Assembly: GCA_007693555.1 (NCBI GenBank)
Contig: REDJ01000044.1
Location: forward strand, 1-62,067
DNA length: 62,067 bases
From: Bacteroidota bacterium
Lineage (GTDB): Bacteria; Bacteroidota; Bacteroidia; Bacteroidales; UBA7960
Reading direction: 5' to 3'
Position numbers and translations under genes: made by a program. A model generated the notes under the pieces. The model was not told the origin of the DNA. It saw only the letters and a list, made by a program, of their open reading frames with translations, and did no database searches. This document shows, in pieces, positions 1-62,041 of this stretch. Position 1 is the first letter of the stretch. Each line of letters opens with the position of its first letter.

Positions 1-49
1 AAATAATCTCTTACCTTAGCATCACATCCAAACAAACTGTTGATTTTAC

Positions 50-877
50 ATGATGAAGCTCTCTGCCCAAACCCGTCAGCAATTGTCTCTTCAACTTAAT
101 ACCAGCAGCGCCCTTGACAGCGGGCTGGATGAAATTCATTTGCTTGCAAGTGAGTACAAAGAGGATATTGTTTCCGGCGACTTTTCAAAGGAAATAAAAA
201 GGCTTTTTGTGTCGGCAAATAACAAAAGGTTTTTTTCTTCTCAAATCTCTGAAAACGAACTTTTAAGGTCAGAGATCTCCAATATGGAAAGAGTCATCAG
301 TTTTGCCATTAATCATCATAAGAGTAAATTCCGCGATTCGGGCTATCCTTATGTGGCTCATGTGCTAAGCGCAGGTTTTTTGCTCGCCAGGCTTGGCTTT
401 CCCAAAGAAATAGTTTATTCTGCAATCCTGCATGATACAATTGAGGATTACCACGATAAAAAAGCAATACTTAATGAGCTTTACAGTATAAATCCTGCGG
501 TTGCATGGTATGTATTCAGTGTATCGGGTGCCGATACAACCGACTCTGCAGAAAAGGACCAGATGCTCATGAGAAAGATTGAAGCGTTTTCCTCCAATAC
601 AGGGAATATCTATCCCAAGGCGATCAAGTGTGCCGACGGTATTGCCAATCTTTATGATGTTGAATTTATGCAAGCCAGGGATGGTCGAAGCGCAAAGGAA
701 AGACAACTGAGATTTATCAGACAAACGGAAAATGAAATCCTGCCTTTTGCCAAAGAAGTTGATCAGGCAGGGGTTATCCGGGTTCAAAAAAGGAAGGAAG
801 TTTTCTCCCTTGAAGAATATATCAAAGATGCCATTACATATAAATTGCAAATCATTGATGGAGATTTCAGAGATTAA
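50..877 (+). CDS. HD-domain protein of the SpoT/MESH1 (p)ppGpp-hydrolase type
   Basis: The 275-residue protein carries the HD metal-binding core of RelA/SpoT-type alarmone hydrolases. Visible elements are an R-x-SG-x-PY-x-x-H segment ending at His104, the HD pair His128-Asp129 followed by ED (132-133), and a late K-x-AD segment with Asp196 that matches the fourth metal ligand. No synthetase, TGS or ACT domain is present, so it is hydrolase-only. The first 75 residues are not recognised. Hydrolysis of (p)ppGpp is inferred from the family; another nucleotide phosphate is possible. The start is one of two adjacent ATGs (50 or 53). Its 3' end overlaps the GNAT gene that follows, which suggests co-translation. 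Confidence 0.8.
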   Translation: MMKLSAQTRQQLSLQLNTSSALDSGLDEIHLLASEYKEDIVSGDFSKEIKRLFVSANNKRFFSSQISENELLRSEISNMERVISFAINHHKSKFRDSGYPYVAHVLSAGFLLARLGFPKEIVYSAILHDTIEDYHDKKAILNELYSINPAVAWYVFSVSGADTTDSAEKDQMLMRKIEAFSSNTGNIYPKAIKCADGIANLYDVEFMQARDGRSAKERQLRFIRQTENEILPFAKEVDQAGVIRVQKRKEVFSLEEYIKDAITYKLQIIDGDFRD

Positions 878-1406
878 GGTGAATGAGCATATTACTCTCA
901 GGCAAATAGCGCGCAGTGATGCTGCTGATATTTTTTATACTATAAAATCACAGCGAAGTTATTTGATTACCTGGTTGCCTTTTGTTGCATGGACAAGTAA
1001 AATTTCGGATACAGAGGCATTTATCGACCATGTTCAGAACACCACGGAAGACAAAGCCGAACCGGTCTTTGTAATAAGATTTGATGATGAATTTGCCGGC
1101 ATTATCGGGTTTAAAGATACTGATCGCATCAATAAGAAAACCGAGATTGGATATTGGCTTTCCGAAAGTTTCCAGAAAAAAGGAATTATAACATTATCTC
1201 TGAAAGAACTTTTGAAACTTGCATTTGAAAAAATGAAAATAAACAGGGTTCAGATCCGTTGTGCAGTTGGAAATACTGCCAGCAGTAAAATCCCCAGACG
1301 CCTTGGATTTAAACTTGAAGGTATTGAAAGAGAAGGAGAACTTTTAAGTAATGGAAAGTTTGCCAATCTTGAAGTGTACAGTTTACTGAATGCTGAGTTT
1401 AAATAG
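858..1406 (+). CDS. GNAT-family N-acetyltransferase, RimJ/RimL type
   Basis: The 182-residue protein is a GNAT acyltransferase that should move an acetyl group from acetyl-CoA to an amine, possibly a protein N-terminus as in RimJ/RimL. It has the N-terminal LRQIARSDA strand-helix, the EIGYWLSESFQKKG acetyl-CoA loop and the C-terminal N-x-A-S-x-x-x-x-x-x-LGF-x-x-EG segment typical of this branch. The ATG at 858 was chosen because homology begins there; translation further upstream would run inside the preceding gene. It overlaps that gene by 20 bp in another frame. The substrate cannot be read from the sequence. Confidence 0.85.
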   Translation: MEISEIKVNEHITLRQIARSDAADIFYTIKSQRSYLITWLPFVAWTSKISDTEAFIDHVQNTTEDKAEPVFVIRFDDEFAGIIGFKDTDRINKKTEIGYWLSESFQKKGIITLSLKELLKLAFEKMKINRVQIRCAVGNTASSKIPRRLGFKLEGIEREGELLSNGKFANLEVYSLLNAEFK

Positions 1407-1715
1407 CTTTGAATAGTTTATAAGAATGATTTTATTAACCTTTTGGTTATCTGGTCATCTTCCAGTCAAATATATATTACAAACTGACGCATTAAGTCAG
1501 CTTAAATCACTACTTTTGCAAAAGCTTTTGCAAACACCGGGTTTGACATTAGAGTTATATTCCAATCATTGCCCGGTTTTATAATCTTTCCCTGAACCAG
1601 TATCTCTTTTTCAGGTGATGCATTTTCAAAGCATCTCTAAGTATTTAAAGAGTGAAAAGTACCGGAAATACGAATAAAACCCAAATTATTAATTAAAATT
1701 ATTTCAAAAGAAACT
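1407..1715. other. 309-bp intergenic region, probable long leader of the cold-shock gene
   Basis: No gene is visible. The stretch holds a perfect 20-bp palindrome (1515-1534) that overlaps a TACTTTTG promoter-like box (1511-1518). A small GATGC/GCATC inverted repeat lies near 1617-1636. If transcription starts just after 1518, the leader before the cold-shock-domain gene is about 190 nt. Long structured leaders are common for cold-shock mRNAs. Confidence 0.4.
1511..1534 (+). promoter_or_regulatory. -7-like box overlapped by a 20-bp perfect palindrome
   Basis: TACTTTTG at 1511-1518 fits the Bacteroidota -7 consensus TAnnTTTG. A perfect palindrome TTTGCAAAAGCTTTTGCAAA occupies 1515-1534. A symmetric site on a promoter box is the usual geometry of a repressor operator. 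No clear -33 TTG is seen about 20 nt upstream, so the promoter itself is uncertain. Confidence 0.4.
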
Positions 1716-2177
1716 ATGGGAAGATCACAACAATCCTTTAACAAAAAAGAAATCGAAAAGAAAAAACGTAAGAAGAAACTCGACAAAGAAAAGAAGAGAG
1801 AAGAACGCCAATCCGGCTCAGAGAAAGGAAAAAGTCTTGATGACATGATTGCTTATGTTGATGAGCATGGAAATATTACCGATACACCCCCTGATCCTGA
1901 AGAAAGGAAAAAAAACGAAATTGAACTGGATGACATTATGATCAATGTCCCCAAAAAGGAAGAACTGGAAGAAGTTAGTAAAGTAAGGTTAGGAACTGTT
2001 ACTTTTTTCAATGATTCCAAAGGTTATGGTTTTATCAAAGACCTGAATACAAAAGAAAGTATTTTTGTACATGTAAACGGACTTATCGATCCTGTAAAAG
2101 AAGGGAATAAAGTGAGTTTTGAAACTGAAAAAGGCCATAAAGGATTGAATGCCATAAAAGTAAAGCTGGCAGATTAA
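1716..2177 (+). CDS. Cold-shock-domain protein with lysine-rich N-terminal tail
   Basis: The 153-residue protein has a C-terminal cold-shock domain (about 90-153) with both RNA-binding motifs: RNP1 as KGYGFIK (102-108) and RNP2 as IFVHV (116-120). It should bind single-stranded RNA or DNA and act as an RNA chaperone. Residues 8-40 are almost entirely charged (K/R/E), followed by an acidic linker. That makes it about twice the size of a classical CspA. The charged tail may add nonspecific nucleic-acid or ribosome binding (inference). It is a single-gene unit with a long leader. Confidence 0.9.
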   Translation: MGRSQQSFNKKEIEKKKRKKKLDKEKKREERQSGSEKGKSLDDMIAYVDEHGNITDTPPDPEERKKNEIELDDIMINVPKKEELEEVSKVRLGTVTFFNDSKGYGFIKDLNTKESIFVHVNGLIDPVKEGNKVSFETEKGHKGLNAIKVKLAD

Positions 2178-2215
2178 ACGAAAAGTTTAACTATGTGCAG
2201 GTGACTGAAAATTGA

Positions 2216-3913
2216 TTAGTACCCTGCTGCCTGTCCATCTTTGCGTGATTCAGATGCCCCGTAATACACTTCATTTATCTTATCCCACATAATGGCCTGG
2301 TAACCTCCGAAAGGCCCGACAGTCCATTGCATCCTGTGCCCTTTCTGAATGAGCTCTCGAATTATTTCATAAGGAAATCCCGATTCGAGCATCAATACCC
2401 CGCCATCAGTCATTTCCTGTCCGGTGGGTTCTGATGAACCGGTATGGTATATGCGTGGTGCATCGCCGGCTTCCTGCAGATTCATTCCAAAATCTACCAG
2501 GTTAACTACAATCTGCACATGCCCCTGGGGCTGCATATCGCCACCCATTACTCCGAAACTGATATAGGGCTGTCCATCTTTGGTGATAAACCCAGGTATA
2601 ATGGTATGAAAAGGTCTTTTGCCTGGTTCATATGTATTAAAACGATCGGGTTGCAGGGTAAATCCTTCCCCGCGGTTCTGAATGACAAAACCCAACCCGG
2701 GAGGAGTCATGCCACTTCCCATTCCACGGTAGTTGCTCTGAATGAGAGACACCATATTGCCATCCTTATCCGCCACGGTAAGATAAACCGTATTAGGACC
2801 TTCGGGAATGCCAGGTTCATAGCGTCTGGCGGCACGTTCAGGATTGATGAGCTTTCTCCTTTCTGCGGCGTATTCTTTTGAAATCAGTTTTTGAACCGGT
2901 ACCGGGCTGAAATCCATATCGGCATAGTACCATGCACGGTCTTCGTAGGCTAGCTTTTTGGCTTCGGTAAAAAGGTGAATGTATTCAGGGCTGAATAAGC
3001 CCATGGATGCAATATCATATTTTTCCAAAATATTCAGCATTTGTAATACGGCAATTCCCTGGCCGTTAGGTGGTAGTTGCCATACATCGTAACCGCGGTA
3101 ATTGGTTGAAACGGGTTCGATCCAGGTACTGGTGTGTGCAGCCATATCCTCATAACTCAAAAATCCACCGTTCTCCCTTATATAAGCTTCAATGGTGCGG
3201 GCAATGTCGCCTTTATAAAAAGCATCACGACCTTCACGGGCTAATATTTCATAGGTATTTGCCAGGTAGGGATTTTTAAATATTTCACCTTTGGCGGGCA
3301 TGCGTCCATCGGGCATGTATGTCTCACGGAAATTGGGGTAATGACCGATACGGCTTACTGACCGTTCCAGGTAATAGGCAATGAGTTCGGTAACGGGAAA
3401 TCCGTTGCGCCCGTAATCAATTGCCGGCTTTAATATAGTTGCCATATCAAGCTTTCCAAATTTGTTGTGCATCTCAAACCAGCCGTCAACGGCCCCGGGC
3501 ACGCTTACTGTCAGCGCTCCGAACATAGGTATGAGTTCGTAGCCCTGTTCAAGATAATACTCCCTGGTAAGGCTTTTGGGTGAACGTCCGCTTGCATTTA
3601 ATCCATAGAGTTGCTGAGTTTCAGCATCCCAGATAATGGCAAACAGATCACCACCAATTCCGCAACCGGTAGGCTCCATAAGCCCCAGCATGGCATTGGC
3701 TGTTATGGCAGCATCAACGGCACTTCCACCTTTTTTCAGGATATCCAGTGCTGCCTGGGTGGCCAGCGGATGACTGGTGGCAACCATTCCGTTTTGGGCA
3801 ATTACCTCTGACCGGGAGGCAAAATTATGACCTGTAATGCGGTCCTGCGCAGATAATGGTTTGAGAAAAATAAAAATTAAAAAAGCTATAAGCATCAGAT
3901 GATATTTTTTCAT
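2216..3913 (-). CDS. ggt: Gamma-glutamyltransferase (glutathione hydrolase)
   Basis: The 565-residue exported enzyme cleaves and transfers the gamma-glutamyl group of glutathione in the periplasm. A signal peptide covers about residues 1-22. Family hallmarks are GGSAVDAAI near residue 62, GCGIGGD near 83, PPNGQG near 281 and NTVYLTVADKDGN, in which Thr375 aligns with the autoprocessing and nucleophilic threonine. A GMGSGMTPP loop follows near 397. Processing at Thr375 would give large and small subunits from one precursor. It converges with the cold-shock gene with a 38-bp gap, and no good hairpin lies between them. Confidence 0.93.
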   Translation of the reverse strand: MKKYHLMLIAFLIFIFLKPLSAQDRITGHNFASRSEVIAQNGMVATSHPLATQAALDILKKGGSAVDAAITANAMLGLMEPTGCGIGGDLFAIIWDAETQQLYGLNASGRSPKSLTREYYLEQGYELIPMFGALTVSVPGAVDGWFEMHNKFGKLDMATILKPAIDYGRNGFPVTELIAYYLERSVSRIGHYPNFRETYMPDGRMPAKGEIFKNPYLANTYEILAREGRDAFYKGDIARTIEAYIRENGGFLSYEDMAAHTSTWIEPVSTNYRGYDVWQLPPNGQGIAVLQMLNILEKYDIASMGLFSPEYIHLFTEAKKLAYEDRAWYYADMDFSPVPVQKLISKEYAAERRKLINPERAARRYEPGIPEGPNTVYLTVADKDGNMVSLIQSNYRGMGSGMTPPGLGFVIQNRGEGFTLQPDRFNTYEPGKRPFHTIIPGFITKDGQPYISFGVMGGDMQPQGHVQIVVNLVDFGMNLQEAGDAPRIYHTGSSEPTGQEMTDGGVLMLESGFPYEIIRELIQKGHRMQWTVGPFGGYQAIMWDKINEVYYGASESRKDGQAAGY

Positions 3914-58684: not shown

Positions 58685-60133
58685 GTGACCGATACCTTTA
58701 AAATAAAAATCCTTTACGGGGCAAGCTTTGCTTTCATTGCATTAAATGTTTTATTTATTGCCAATGAGATTTACTGGTTTATGGCTTTGCCTCTGGCATT
58801 GCTAGTAATGCTGTTGTTCTTTTTTTCACTTGACAAACTTTTGTTGGCAATCGTCTTTATAACTCCGTTTACATTCAAATACCGTCATGAAGCGATGGGG
58901 TTTACAGTCGATATTCCAACCGAGCCTGTAATTGTGGCTATAATGTGCCTGTTTTTTCTCAAACTGTTTTATGAGCAGAGATATGACATGCGAATAATCA
59001 GGCATCCGGTTACAGTCATTCTTATCATTAATCTCATCTGGATGTTTGTTACCTCGGTTACCAGTGAAATACCTGTAGTTTCCTTTAAATTTTTTATTAG
59101 CAGACTATGGTTTGTGGTAACATTCTATTTTGTTCTGATTCAATTATTCAAGCAACCCGAAAAAATCAGGCTGTTTTTGTGGCTATTTGGTACCGCACTT
59201 GTAATGATAATCATTTACATAACTATTCAGCATGGTGGTTATGGATTTGAAAGACAGGTTGGTACATGGGTAGTGAGGCCGTTTTTTAATGACCATACCA
59301 ATTATAGTGCTGTGATTGCACTCGTAGCTCCGGTATTTATAATAAAAGCTTTTTTAAAAGATTACAACGTTTTAAGCAAAAGAATTGCCCTTTTGTTTTT
59401 TGCAGTTTTTGTAATGGGAATTATTTTCAGTTACAGCAGAGCGTCATGGTTAAGCCTTTTTGTTGCATTTGGCGCATTCTGGATTCTGGTATTGAAAATT
59501 GATTATAAACTCATATTTGCCGGCCTTATATTGATTGTGGGTACAGCTTATCTTTTTCAGGATGATATCATTATGCAACTTGAGCGAAACCGTCAGGAAT
59601 CATCCGGAGATTTTCGTGAGCATGCCCAATCTGTAACAAATATTACCTCTGATGCCAGCAACCTTGAGCGCATTAACCGATGGCGTGCAGCTATCAGAAT
59701 GTTTGAAGAAAGGCCCATTCTGGGATGGGGTCCGGGTACTTACCAGCTTGTGTATGCTCCCTTCCAGCTATCAGAAGACCATACCATCATAACTACCAAT
59801 TTTGGAGACCTCGGAAATGCCCATAGCGAATACCTGGGGCCTTTGTCAGAATCCGGCATACCGGGTATGCTAACCTTCATTTTATTGGCTGTATGGGTGT
59901 TAATTACAGGAGTGCAGAATTTTAAACGGGCTCCCACAAGAGAGTTCAGATGGTTATCTCTTGGGTTAACTCTCGGTTTTATCACATACTTTACACACGG
60001 TTTACTCAATAATTTCCTTGATACCGATAAGGCATCTGTTCCATTCTGGGGTTTTATGGCAATACTTGTGGCTATAGATATTTATCATACTCCGCGAAGA
60101 GAAAAGAAATCCAAGGACCTGCCGGAAAGTTAA
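58685..60133 (+). CDS. O-antigen ligase/polymerase family protein (Wzy/WaaL-like)
   Basis: The 482-residue membrane protein has about 10-12 helices and a large periplasmic loop with the Wzy_C signature near NAHSEYLGPLSESGIPG. It would polymerise or ligate polysaccharide units on the periplasmic side. The start is a GTG at 58685, 16 bp after the Wzz-like gene. Ligase and polymerase cannot be told apart from sequence; the Wzx and Wzz neighbours favour polymerase. Confidence 0.85.
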   Translation: MTDTFKIKILYGASFAFIALNVLFIANEIYWFMALPLALLVMLLFFFSLDKLLLAIVFITPFTFKYRHEAMGFTVDIPTEPVIVAIMCLFFLKLFYEQRYDMRIIRHPVTVILIINLIWMFVTSVTSEIPVVSFKFFISRLWFVVTFYFVLIQLFKQPEKIRLFLWLFGTALVMIIIYITIQHGGYGFERQVGTWVVRPFFNDHTNYSAVIALVAPVFIIKAFLKDYNVLSKRIALLFFAVFVMGIIFSYSRASWLSLFVAFGAFWILVLKIDYKLIFAGLILIVGTAYLFQDDIIMQLERNRQESSGDFREHAQSVTNITSDASNLERINRWRAAIRMFEERPILGWGPGTYQLVYAPFQLSEDHTIITTNFGDLGNAHSEYLGPLSESGIPGMLTFILLAVWVLITGVQNFKRAPTREFRWLSLGLTLGFITYFTHGLLNNFLDTDKASVPFWGFMAILVAIDIYHTPRREKKSKDLPES

Positions 60134-60514: not shown

Positions 60515-61807
60515 ATGAAAACCCACTTCAGATTCATTCTCATTCCCTTGATATCAGCCCTGCTGCTCATCCTGGCAAATTGCAACAAAGAAGAACCCGT
60601 AAAGCAGGCTACCCTAACCACCCTATCCGTAACCAATATCACCACCAACACCACCCAAAGCGGGAGCAACATCACCAGCGATGGTGGTGGCGATATCACT
60701 TCCCGTGGTGTGGTGTGGGGCACTAACCCTAACCCCACTGCTGAACAAAACAATGGCCTTACCATGGATGGCAGTGGTTCGGGCTTGTTCCAGAGCAACA
60801 TTACCTACCTGCAACCCAATACTACGTATTATGTGCGGGCGTATGCTAGCAATGAAGCGGGTATGGTGTATGGTAATGAGCAGGAATTTGCCACCGAAGG
60901 TACTTCACCAGAAGTTACCACCAGCCAGGTAACCAATATCACACAAATCTCAGCCACATCAGGCGGCAATGTTACAGATGACGGAGGTGCAAGTGTAACT
61001 GCCCGAGGGGTGGTGTGGAGCACATCACAAAACCCCACCCTTGAAAACAATTTGGGTAGTACCAATAATGGGAGTGGCGCAGGTGCTTTTACCAGTAATA
61101 TTACCGGTTTATCATCCAATACCACTTATTATGTGAGGGCTTATGCAACTAATAATTCGGGTAATGGATATGGGCAACAGGAATCATTTACTACTGAAGA
61201 TAGCGGTGGTGGTAACGGCAACTACACCCAGGTAGTAGAAGTCCTCAATCCCGCCACCGGCAAGATATGGATGGACCGCAACATGGGTGCCAGTCGTGCC
61301 GCCACCAGCAGCACCGATGCCGAAGCATACGGTGACCTGTACCAATGGGGCAGGGCAGCCGATGGGCACCAGGTTAGGACATCCAGCACAACATCAACCT
61401 TAAGCAACTCTGACACTCCCGGGCATGGAGATTTTATCACAGTTGGCAGCAGTCCTTATGATTGGCGCAGCCCGCAAAATGATAATCTGTGGCAGGGTGT
61501 AAACGGCACTAACAACCCCTGTCCGGCTGGTTATCGGTTGCCCACCAAAGCAGAGTTAAATGCAGAACGCCTGAGCTGGAGCAGCTACGATGCTTCGGGC
61601 GCTTTCGCTTCGCCCCTTAAATTGCCCGTGGCGGGCCGCTGCTACAGCAGCGATGGTTCGCTCGGCAATGTCGGCTCCGGCAGCTACTGTTGGTCAAGTA
61701 AGGTTAGCAGCTCCAATTCCCGCTACCTGTATTTCTGTAGCAGCAATGCCCGTATGTACAGCTACGATCGCGCGCTCGGACTCTCTGTCCGTTGCCTCAA
61801 GGATTAG
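60515..61807 (+). CDS. Lipoprotein with two FN3-like repeats and a C-terminal FISUMP/C-type-lectin-like domain; likely DGR target
   Basis: The 430-residue protein starts with a lipoprotein-like signal (Cys23 in LILANCNKEE). Two tandem FN3-like repeats of about 95 residues follow (34-128 and 134-228; each with RGVVW-[GS]T, NPT, SNIT and NTTYYVRAYA). The C-terminal part (about 238-430) is a Fibrobacter-succinogenes-major-paralogue (FISUMP) domain with WMDRNMGA, YQWGRAADGH, CPAGYRLPT and a final SVRC. FISUMP domains adopt a C-type-lectin/FGE-type fold used by DGR variable proteins. The last 65 residues are rich in Tyr, Ser, Cys, Gly, Arg, Asp and Asn. The ATG at 60515 was chosen because the signal peptide starts there. 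It is GC-richer than its surroundings and is probably surface-displayed. Confidence 0.87.
   Translation: MKTHFRFILIPLISALLLILANCNKEEPVKQATLTTLSVTNITTNTTQSGSNITSDGGGDITSRGVVWGTNPNPTAEQNNGLTMDGSGSGLFQSNITYLQPNTTYYVRAYASNEAGMVYGNEQEFATEGTSPEVTTSQVTNITQISATSGGNVTDDGGASVTARGVVWSTSQNPTLENNLGSTNNGSGAGAFTSNITGLSSNTTYYVRAYATNNSGNGYGQQESFTTEDSGGGNGNYTQVVEVLNPATGKIWMDRNMGASRAATSSTDAEAYGDLYQWGRAADGHQVRTSSTTSTLSNSDTPGHGDFITVGSSPYDWRSPQNDNLWQGVNGTNNPCPAGYRLPTKAELNAERLSWSSYDASGAFASPLKLPVAGRCYSSDGSLGNVGSGSYCWSSKVSSSNSRYLYFCSSNARMYSYDRALGLSVRCLKD
60605..61198 (+). repeat. Two tandem FN3-like coding repeats (about 290 bp each)
   Basis: Unit 1 spans about 60605-60898 and unit 2 about 60905-61198. They share the protein pattern of RGVVW, NPT, SGxGxF and NTTYYVRAYA at matching positions. 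They likely arose by internal duplication and act as a stalk that lifts the lectin-like domain off the cell surface. Confidence 0.8.
61605..61804 (+). other. Candidate DGR variable region (VR)
   Basis: The last about 200 bp of the lipoprotein gene end at a C-terminal lectin-like fold. Between 61637 and 61777 most codons end in C or T, and many could come from AAC or AAT by changes at the first two bases (CGC, TGC, TAC, AGC, GAT, GGT, CTC, GGC, TGT, TAT, CGT). The residues form the Y/S/C/G/R/D/N set seen in DGR-diversified binding faces. Flanking conserved words (SPLKLPVAG before, LSVRCLKD after) are in the order seen in known FISUMP-type targets. No template repeat is in the window to confirm it. 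Confidence 0.72.
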
Positions 61808-61843
61808 AAGACACTTTGATATATTTGATTTATTTGACACTTT

Positions 61844-61873
61844 AAACTCCTGTCCCGCAGGGCAGGGGTTTTT
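61844..61873 (+). terminator. 12-bp hairpin downstream of the variable region
   Basis: Stem 61844-61855 with 61860-61871, containing two G-T pairs and a CGCA tetraloop (61856-61859), then TTTTTG. It can act as a terminator. In known DGRs a hairpin just 3' of the variable region is needed for target recognition, so it may have that role too. It lies 36 bp past the stop codon. Confidence 0.65.
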
Positions 61874-61879
61874 GAAAAT

Positions 61880-61904
61880 ACCGCCTTTGGCGGTCTAATT
61901 TTTT
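61880..61904 (+). terminator. Second hairpin with T-run
   Basis: A perfect 6-bp stem ACCGCC / GGCGGT with a TTT loop (61880-61894), then CTAA and a run of six T. It lies 5 bp before the next start codon, an odd place for a plain terminator. Confidence 0.6.
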
Positions 61905-61909
61905 GAAAA

Positions 61910-62041
61910 ATGACATTATCTGAAAAAGTAAAAAACAGCGCAAGCAAAACCATATTTACACTTTATAAAGAAGGTTTATTTTATAAGTGTTATAATGAAG
62001 ATGCAATGGTATTTGCCTGCACACACCCCTTAATCCCCTAA
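61910..62041 (+). pseudogene. Truncated MutS-domain-I-like small ORF (possible DGR accessory gene)
   Basis: The ORF starts MTLSEKVKNSASKTIF and continues LYKEGLFYKCYNEDAMVF. The F-x-x-x-x-GxFY-x-x-x-x-EDA-x-V pattern is that of MutS domain I (E. coli MutS has GDFYELF-x-DA). Small MutS-I-like proteins occur next to reverse transcriptase and template repeat in many Bacteroidota DGRs. After about residue 36 the sequence changes into the repeat-like DNA at the edge and stops at 62039-62041, so the gene is broken or chimeric there. A normal relative would be longer. Confidence 0.6.

Follow-up and report, generated by a model that had tools for sequence, protein, structure and literature searches.

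A lectin-like gene in a Bacteroidota draft genome that is probably an orphaned target of a diversity-generating retroelement

The window, meaning the whole stretch of DNA analyzed here, is a single contig of 62,067 bp (C116) from a draft assembly that totals 4.23 Mb, consists of 247 contigs, and is 96.7% complete. Near its right-hand end lies the gene under study (the target gene; Table 1), which comes after a gene of the O-antigen-ligase type (58685-60133; Wzy_C, 79.1 bits; cut-off, 31.7) and encodes a putative lipoprotein, judged by eye from a hydrophobic N terminus. The contig ends 260 bp past the stop codon of the target gene. To the right of the gene we found two predicted hairpins, the beginning of an accessory open reading frame (ORF), and a short tail, all of which have counterparts in or next to diversity-generating retroelements (DGRs) or their lectin-like target genes. 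In a DGR, an error-prone reverse transcriptase (RT) copies a template repeat (TR) and misincorporates at adenines, and the resulting cDNA replaces the 3′ end of a gene, here called the variable region (VR).

Table 1. Features of the window and of the complete DGR used for comparison (G302; locus L136 = G302:C140)
Feature	Coordinates	Strand	Remarks
Target gene	60515..61807	+	430 aa; mechanical ORF from TTG 60452, ATG at 60515
FISUMP-like domain	61217..61804	+	78% identical to G321, 76% to the G302 DGR target
Variable region (VR)	61621..61806	+	aligns without gaps to the template repeat of G302 (L136 3722-3907)
Predicted hairpin after VR	61844..61871	+	12-bp stem, 4-nt loop; energy model
Second short inverted repeat	61880..61894	+	ACCGCC...GGCGGT; present in L136 too
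Accessory ORF, first 36 codons, truncated	61910..62017	+	relatives' family 166-209 aa in L053, L136, and L055
54-nt tail to contig end	62014..62067	+	88.9% identical to G321, L137 2697-2750
G302 complete DGR	L136, 4161-bp contig		same sequence as PWHO01000304.1, Bacteroidales bacterium MAG
L136 lectin gene	39-1040		
L136 accessory ORF	1141-1671		ATG 1141, end 1671
L136 RT	1658-2875		YVDD
L136 Avd	3239-3589		bAvd 60.8 bits, cut-off 40
L136 TR	3722-3907		

The sequence-only reading of this DNA had described the protein as a FISUMP-like C-terminal domain on a stalk of two FN3 domains. The FISUMP similarity is visible and extends to the end of both profiles, but the scores stay below the cut-offs (24.6 bits versus the curated 33.9 for Pfam Fib_succ_major; 29.4 versus 41.65 for NCBIfam TIGR02145). 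Likewise, two FN3-like stretches are present, but the fn3 score falls just under its cut-off (23.4 versus 25 bits). On a possible C-type lectin fold, the structure model (pLDDT, 70.8; pTM, 0.70) gave little information: a structure search of the PDB returned nothing at an E value of ≤0.001, with a few C-type lectins among the matches at E values of 2.3 to 3.2. The closest lectin comes from a genome of the same genus (G321; 78% identity over the domain and 87% over the 132 columns before the VR), which is also the nearest row in a tree built from the lectin sequence upstream of the VR; this tree is poorly resolved, with a star on just 1 of its 26 inner branches. Searching phage records with the lectin domain gave no match. 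On viral contigs, 18 loci with relatives of the lectin had no matches to RT, Avd, the accessory ORF, or a TR/VR pair in the DNA examined (0/18) and thus give no sign of a phage link.

Across 47 genomes of the family, the lectin domain was found in 27, the window's own included, and 24 of the 26 other lectin-bearing genomes had no DGR RT match. DGR RTs occurred in 2 of the 47 (the second RT-bearing genome being G320, on C18) and in none of the 12 genomes that belong to the same genus as the window. At the order level, 9 of 45 genomes had an RT, 43 of the 45 having been chosen for carrying the lectin. It is thus the rule for a lectin-bearing genome to have no DGR RT match. One genome of the family (G296) carries 34 lectin-domain matches, many of them clustered on one contig (C49), and no DGR RT match. 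Elsewhere, long open frames hold several lectin domains, each with its own variable end (L059 10308-12716; L138 2965-5367).

The complete DGR of G302 shows how such a cassette is arranged in relatives: lectin, accessory ORF, RT, Avd, and TR. Its VR has 21 mismatches to its TR, every one of them (21/21) at a template adenine. A GIY-YIG nuclease-like frame lies between its RT and Avd genes (L136 2967-3242; PF01541, 59.1 bits against 22.6). The accessory proteins of L053 (1809-2309) and L136 (1141-1671) score 19.1 and 18.1 bits with Pfam MutS_I, against a cut-off of 20.6, and the L055 protein matches no Pfam family. MutS domain I is involved in mismatch recognition, and a MutS-like (MSL) DGR accessory was reportedly named by Wu et al. 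in Nucleic Acids Research in 2018. The term "MSL" does not occur in the available part of PMC12875486.

The sequence-only reading had also singled out the 3′ end of the target gene as rich in NNC and NNT codons and had taken it for the probable variable region of a DGR. The codon run is present, although the excess is small when only codons are counted: S, G, R, and L codons end in C or T in 27 of 32 cases within 61622-61804, compared with 73 of 117 in the preceding part of the gene (P = 0.02 by Fisher's test) and with 146/277, 44/84, 68/160, 37/91, and 60/132 in five other genes of the window. Taken by itself this argument is weak, because Y, C, D, and N codons necessarily end in C or T; it becomes strong only once the segment is compared with the real TR of a same-family DGR. 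Against the G302 TR, the window differs at 29 of 58 template adenines and at 24 of 128 other bases (P = 2.2e-5), and the contrast sharpens at codon positions 1 and 2 (26/51 versus 6/71; P = 1.8e-7). Sixteen of the 19 AAC/AAT codons of the TR are changed in the window, yet all 19 are still NNY, while residues change in only 7 of the 42 non-AAY codons (P = 7e-7 for AAY versus the rest); the changed template-AAY codons are confined to 61637-61783. The non-A differences that lie in whole codons fall mostly at third positions (17/23), which fits the divergence expected between species. As a control, the part of the gene before the VR, which has just 14 AAY codons, shows no adenine excess between the window and G302 (4/14 AAY and 42/151 other codons changed; P = 1). 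Judging from this comparison, the 3′ end of the target gene has almost certainly been rewritten by an adenine-mutating, DGR-type system. A guess from codon usage has thereby become a tested DGR variable region, upheld by both the TR comparison and the common sequence downstream, and a VR proves recognizable without its own template by means of a TR borrowed from a relative.

The likeness to DGR loci continues past the stop codon. Two hairpins follow the VR in the window and in L136 alike, with different stem sequences, and similar hairpins were seen by eye in five of the seven TR-paired rows of the segment comparison described below (L155 [= L136], L158, L163, L168, and L169). These hairpins, of which the first in the window was predicted with an energy model, may be VR-side cruciforms or transcription terminators. 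The accessory ORF begins after them and is 72 to 77% identical to those of L053 and L136 over 35 to 36 codons; past codon 36 other sequence follows and then a stop, still before the end of the contig. Its N terminus had no match in phage records. The tail matches the same-genus genome G321 with an E value of 1.3e-14 among the loci compared, and there the matching stretch has a cassette-free lectin gene on one side and a thioredoxin-like gene on the other, the order being lectin gene, apparent half hairpin, stretch, and thioredoxin-like gene (L137). Within its own assembly the tail matched itself and three partial copies, so it is no abundant repeat there. This match is the best evidence for a real break at a deletion junction; alternatively, one palindromic element could have been inserted independently at the two sites.

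Of what the complete cassettes carry farther right, neither an RT nor a TR was found in the window's own assembly. A DNA search of the 4.23 Mb with 61560-61820 returned only the query itself (E = 1.8e-133) and eight matches of 17 to 35 nt, which leaves no second copy of the VR, and neither an RT profile nor the DGR RT proteins of two relatives (E ≤ 1e-8) found a DGR RT in this 96.7% complete assembly. The sequence-only reading had proposed a copy with adenine-only mismatches and an RT as the decisive finds, to be sought in the complete genome; the assembly holds neither, but it is incomplete and its contig stops 260 bp past the gene. The only RVT_1 match (C150) was rejected as a DGR RT: it is a 214-aa frame combining the RVT_1 C terminus with GIIM (64.1 bits versus a cut-off of 23), that is, a group II intron maturase. 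The corresponding RT/maturase fragment lies at G000:C150:136657-136854 (L010). The remainder of the accessory ORF did not turn up anywhere in the assembly, apart from one weak match (E = 0.23), and for the thioredoxin-like neighbor there were just four matches with 23 to 39% identity over part of the protein. Since this neighbor is missing from the assembly, the right flank cannot be bridged.

To judge whether the VR is frozen or still diversifying, we compared 64 distinct gapless 183-nt segments from the loci studied (8 TRs and 56 others, two TR-like pieces [L158 and L165] included), leaving out gapped matches, matches shorter than 45 codons, and matches running off their locus. At the 15 positions that are AAY in all eight TRs, the window has 13 changes and is NNY at 15/15. 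Full NNY conservation was found in 7 of 7 TR-paired rows and in 20 of 49 unpaired rows, others falling as low as 8/15. At the 11 adenine-free positions common to the eight TRs, the window has two changes (R to C and G to S), compared with none in the seven TR-paired rows and 0 to 5 in the 49 unpaired rows, among which the window is counted; this yardstick is partly circular because six of the seven TR-paired rows contributed their own TR to the eight. G321, a genome without an RT match, is NNY at 15/15 and has no deviation at the adenine-free positions. By this pattern the VR of the window would be fairly young, with slight later drift, although the two non-A changes could also stem from an unseen TR of its own lineage. 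A VR signature alone does not prove ongoing diversification, and we consider that the window gene is probably no longer diversifying. The sequence-only reading's further idea, that binding could be switched quickly within one cell lineage, accordingly finds no backing in an assembly in which neither a TR nor a DGR RT was found and the accessory ORF is broken off.

We conclude, with a probability of about 70%, that the window gene is a DGR target that was orphaned by deletion of its machinery and whose VR is now frozen. The relation between VR and template, the common hairpins downstream, the truncated accessory ORF, and the failure to find an RT or TR in the assembly are the observations on which this conclusion is built. 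We regard it as unlikely, though a serious competitor, that the DGR still works, with the rest of the accessory ORF, RT, Avd, and TR located past the end of this contig or on one that was not binned, or with an RT acting in trans. The contig breaks in exactly the cassette region and the thioredoxin-like right neighbor is missing as well, so that the RT/TR region may just have failed to assemble; DGRs, with their repeats and strain variation, may themselves break assemblies, an RT encoded in the few percent of the genome that the assembly lacks could act in trans, and NNY conservation at 15/15 shared template-AAY positions is what a young VR would show. However, the accessory ORF is broken off and closed by a stop before the contig ends, the tail has its match at a locus of the same genus that lacks a cassette, no RT occurs in any of the 12 genomes of the genus, and the 4.23 Mb contain no second VR copy.

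That the gene is an ordinary FISUMP-like lectin paralogue, shaped by selection on its binding surface and by codon bias and with no DGR history, could draw on the occurrence of the domain in 26 further genomes of the family, among which 24 gave no DGR RT match, and on RT-less copies that lack the NNY pattern (down to 8/15). We consider this very improbable in view of the adenine-specific pattern against a real TR (P = 1.8e-7), the conservation of NNY at 19/19 codons, and the hairpins and DGR accessory ORF that come right after the gene. It is extremely improbable that TR and RT lie within the assembled contigs and were overlooked, given that the DNA search with 61560-61820 returned only itself and its eight short matches and that no DGR RT came up with either the RT profile or the two DGR RT proteins.

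Under the preferred reading of an orphaned target, a DGR would have written the last ~60 codons of the lectin-like gene, altering bases opposite template adenines, mostly in AAC/AAT codons. RT, Avd, and TR would then, most likely, have been deleted rightwards from within the accessory ORF, and one diversified version of the lectin would have stayed fixed, now subject to ordinary mutation. The protein may be displayed on the cell surface and bind a ligand there.

Loci in other genomes appear to record similar losses. Using the accessory ORF as a marker, we searched genome contigs with a profile (the alignment of four relatives plus the window's 35 codons) and obtained 30 loci, four of which (L157, L161, L175, and L182) are the query contigs themselves. 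A lectin match lies at most ~700 nt upstream in 23 of the 30. RT matches of at least 1,000 nt were found in 14; one more (L177) has an RT that the contig end cuts off, three (L159, L161, and L185) have short RT fragments, and 12 have no RT match. The RT queries were two proteins only, so that distant RTs may escape, and several loci stop near the accessory ORF. TR/VR pairs with more than 75% of mismatches at template adenines were present in 13 of the 30 (18 to 30 such mismatches each; L158 just makes it with 25/32). Record names that do not fit the expected host (Gammaproteobacteria, Thioalkalivibrio, and Bifidobacterium) probably denote mis-binned contigs.

The remnants are graded. In Flavivirga jejuensis (L169 2430-6671), a TR has its mismatches to one lectin VR at template adenines in 21 of 21 cases and to another in 18 of 22, the accessory ORF passes straight into the last part of Avd, of which 16 codons are left, and no RT was found within the 12.4 kb examined; either the RT has just been lost or the TR may be served in trans. 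A piece of the TR survives in L158, 56 RT codons and, by eye, the last bases of a TR in L159, and 33 RT codons in L053/L161. Only a piece of the accessory ORF is left in L171, L173, L179, L181, and L183; the contig of L179 ends 50 nt after it, cut like the window, and the other four continue for more than 2 kb. A locus of this type that resembles the window is L171 of Mesohalobacter halotolerans (607,857-bp contig), with a lectin gene followed by an accessory match of 68 codons only and no RT match ahead of the thioredoxin-like gene, but its breakpoint is different and an AAA_14/DUF4143 gene lies in between.

The thioredoxin-like gene (Thioredoxin_8 and AhpC-TSA, both above cut-off) lies close behind the TR in the complete cassettes L160 and L163 and 1.6 to 2.8 kb farther on in L162 and L170, and it also stands behind cassette-free lectin genes (L137, L138, L142, and L143); it was not seen in the DNA examined after L136, L165, L167, and L168. 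Its coordinates with and without a cassette include L137 2850-4247, L160 2513-3922, and L158 1628-3028. The series of relics (TR without RT, RT fragment, accessory fragment only) makes DGR loss directly testable. We tentatively suggest, at somewhat less than even odds, that this Bacteroidota DGR subtype is a use-and-discard device, a cassette that scrambles the end of the adjoining lectin, is lost by deletion time and again, and leaves fixed lectins behind. If so, large RT-less lectin families such as that of G296, with its 34 matches, would have been stocked by such cassettes.

DGRs are described as commoner in the FCB group and, among other places, in saline lakes in the part of PMC8144416 available. 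The complete Bacteroidota/Balneolota DGRs of this subtype, L136/G302, L162 (Salinivirgaceae bacterium), L163 (Balneolaceae bacterium ANBcel3), L168, and L170, resemble the window in having the lectin domain and an adjoining accessory ORF, and the G302 TR fits the window VR without a gap; they then continue into RT, Avd, and TR, whereas in the window the accessory ORF stops short and neither an RT nor a TR was found. Orphaned DGR targets are already known, and the window gene is a further case. According to the accessible portions of these reports, Treponema denticola isolates without RT and TR carry target genes termed remnants of core DGRs (PMC4891356), and a cyanobacterial paralogue has remnant TR-VR homology with no RT nearby (PMC7517822); in both, targets with a VR signature but without an RT, and in T. 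denticola also without a TR, are read as leftovers of lost DGRs. Those remnants come from other phyla, whereas here the stages of deletion are visible beside a recurring right neighbor.
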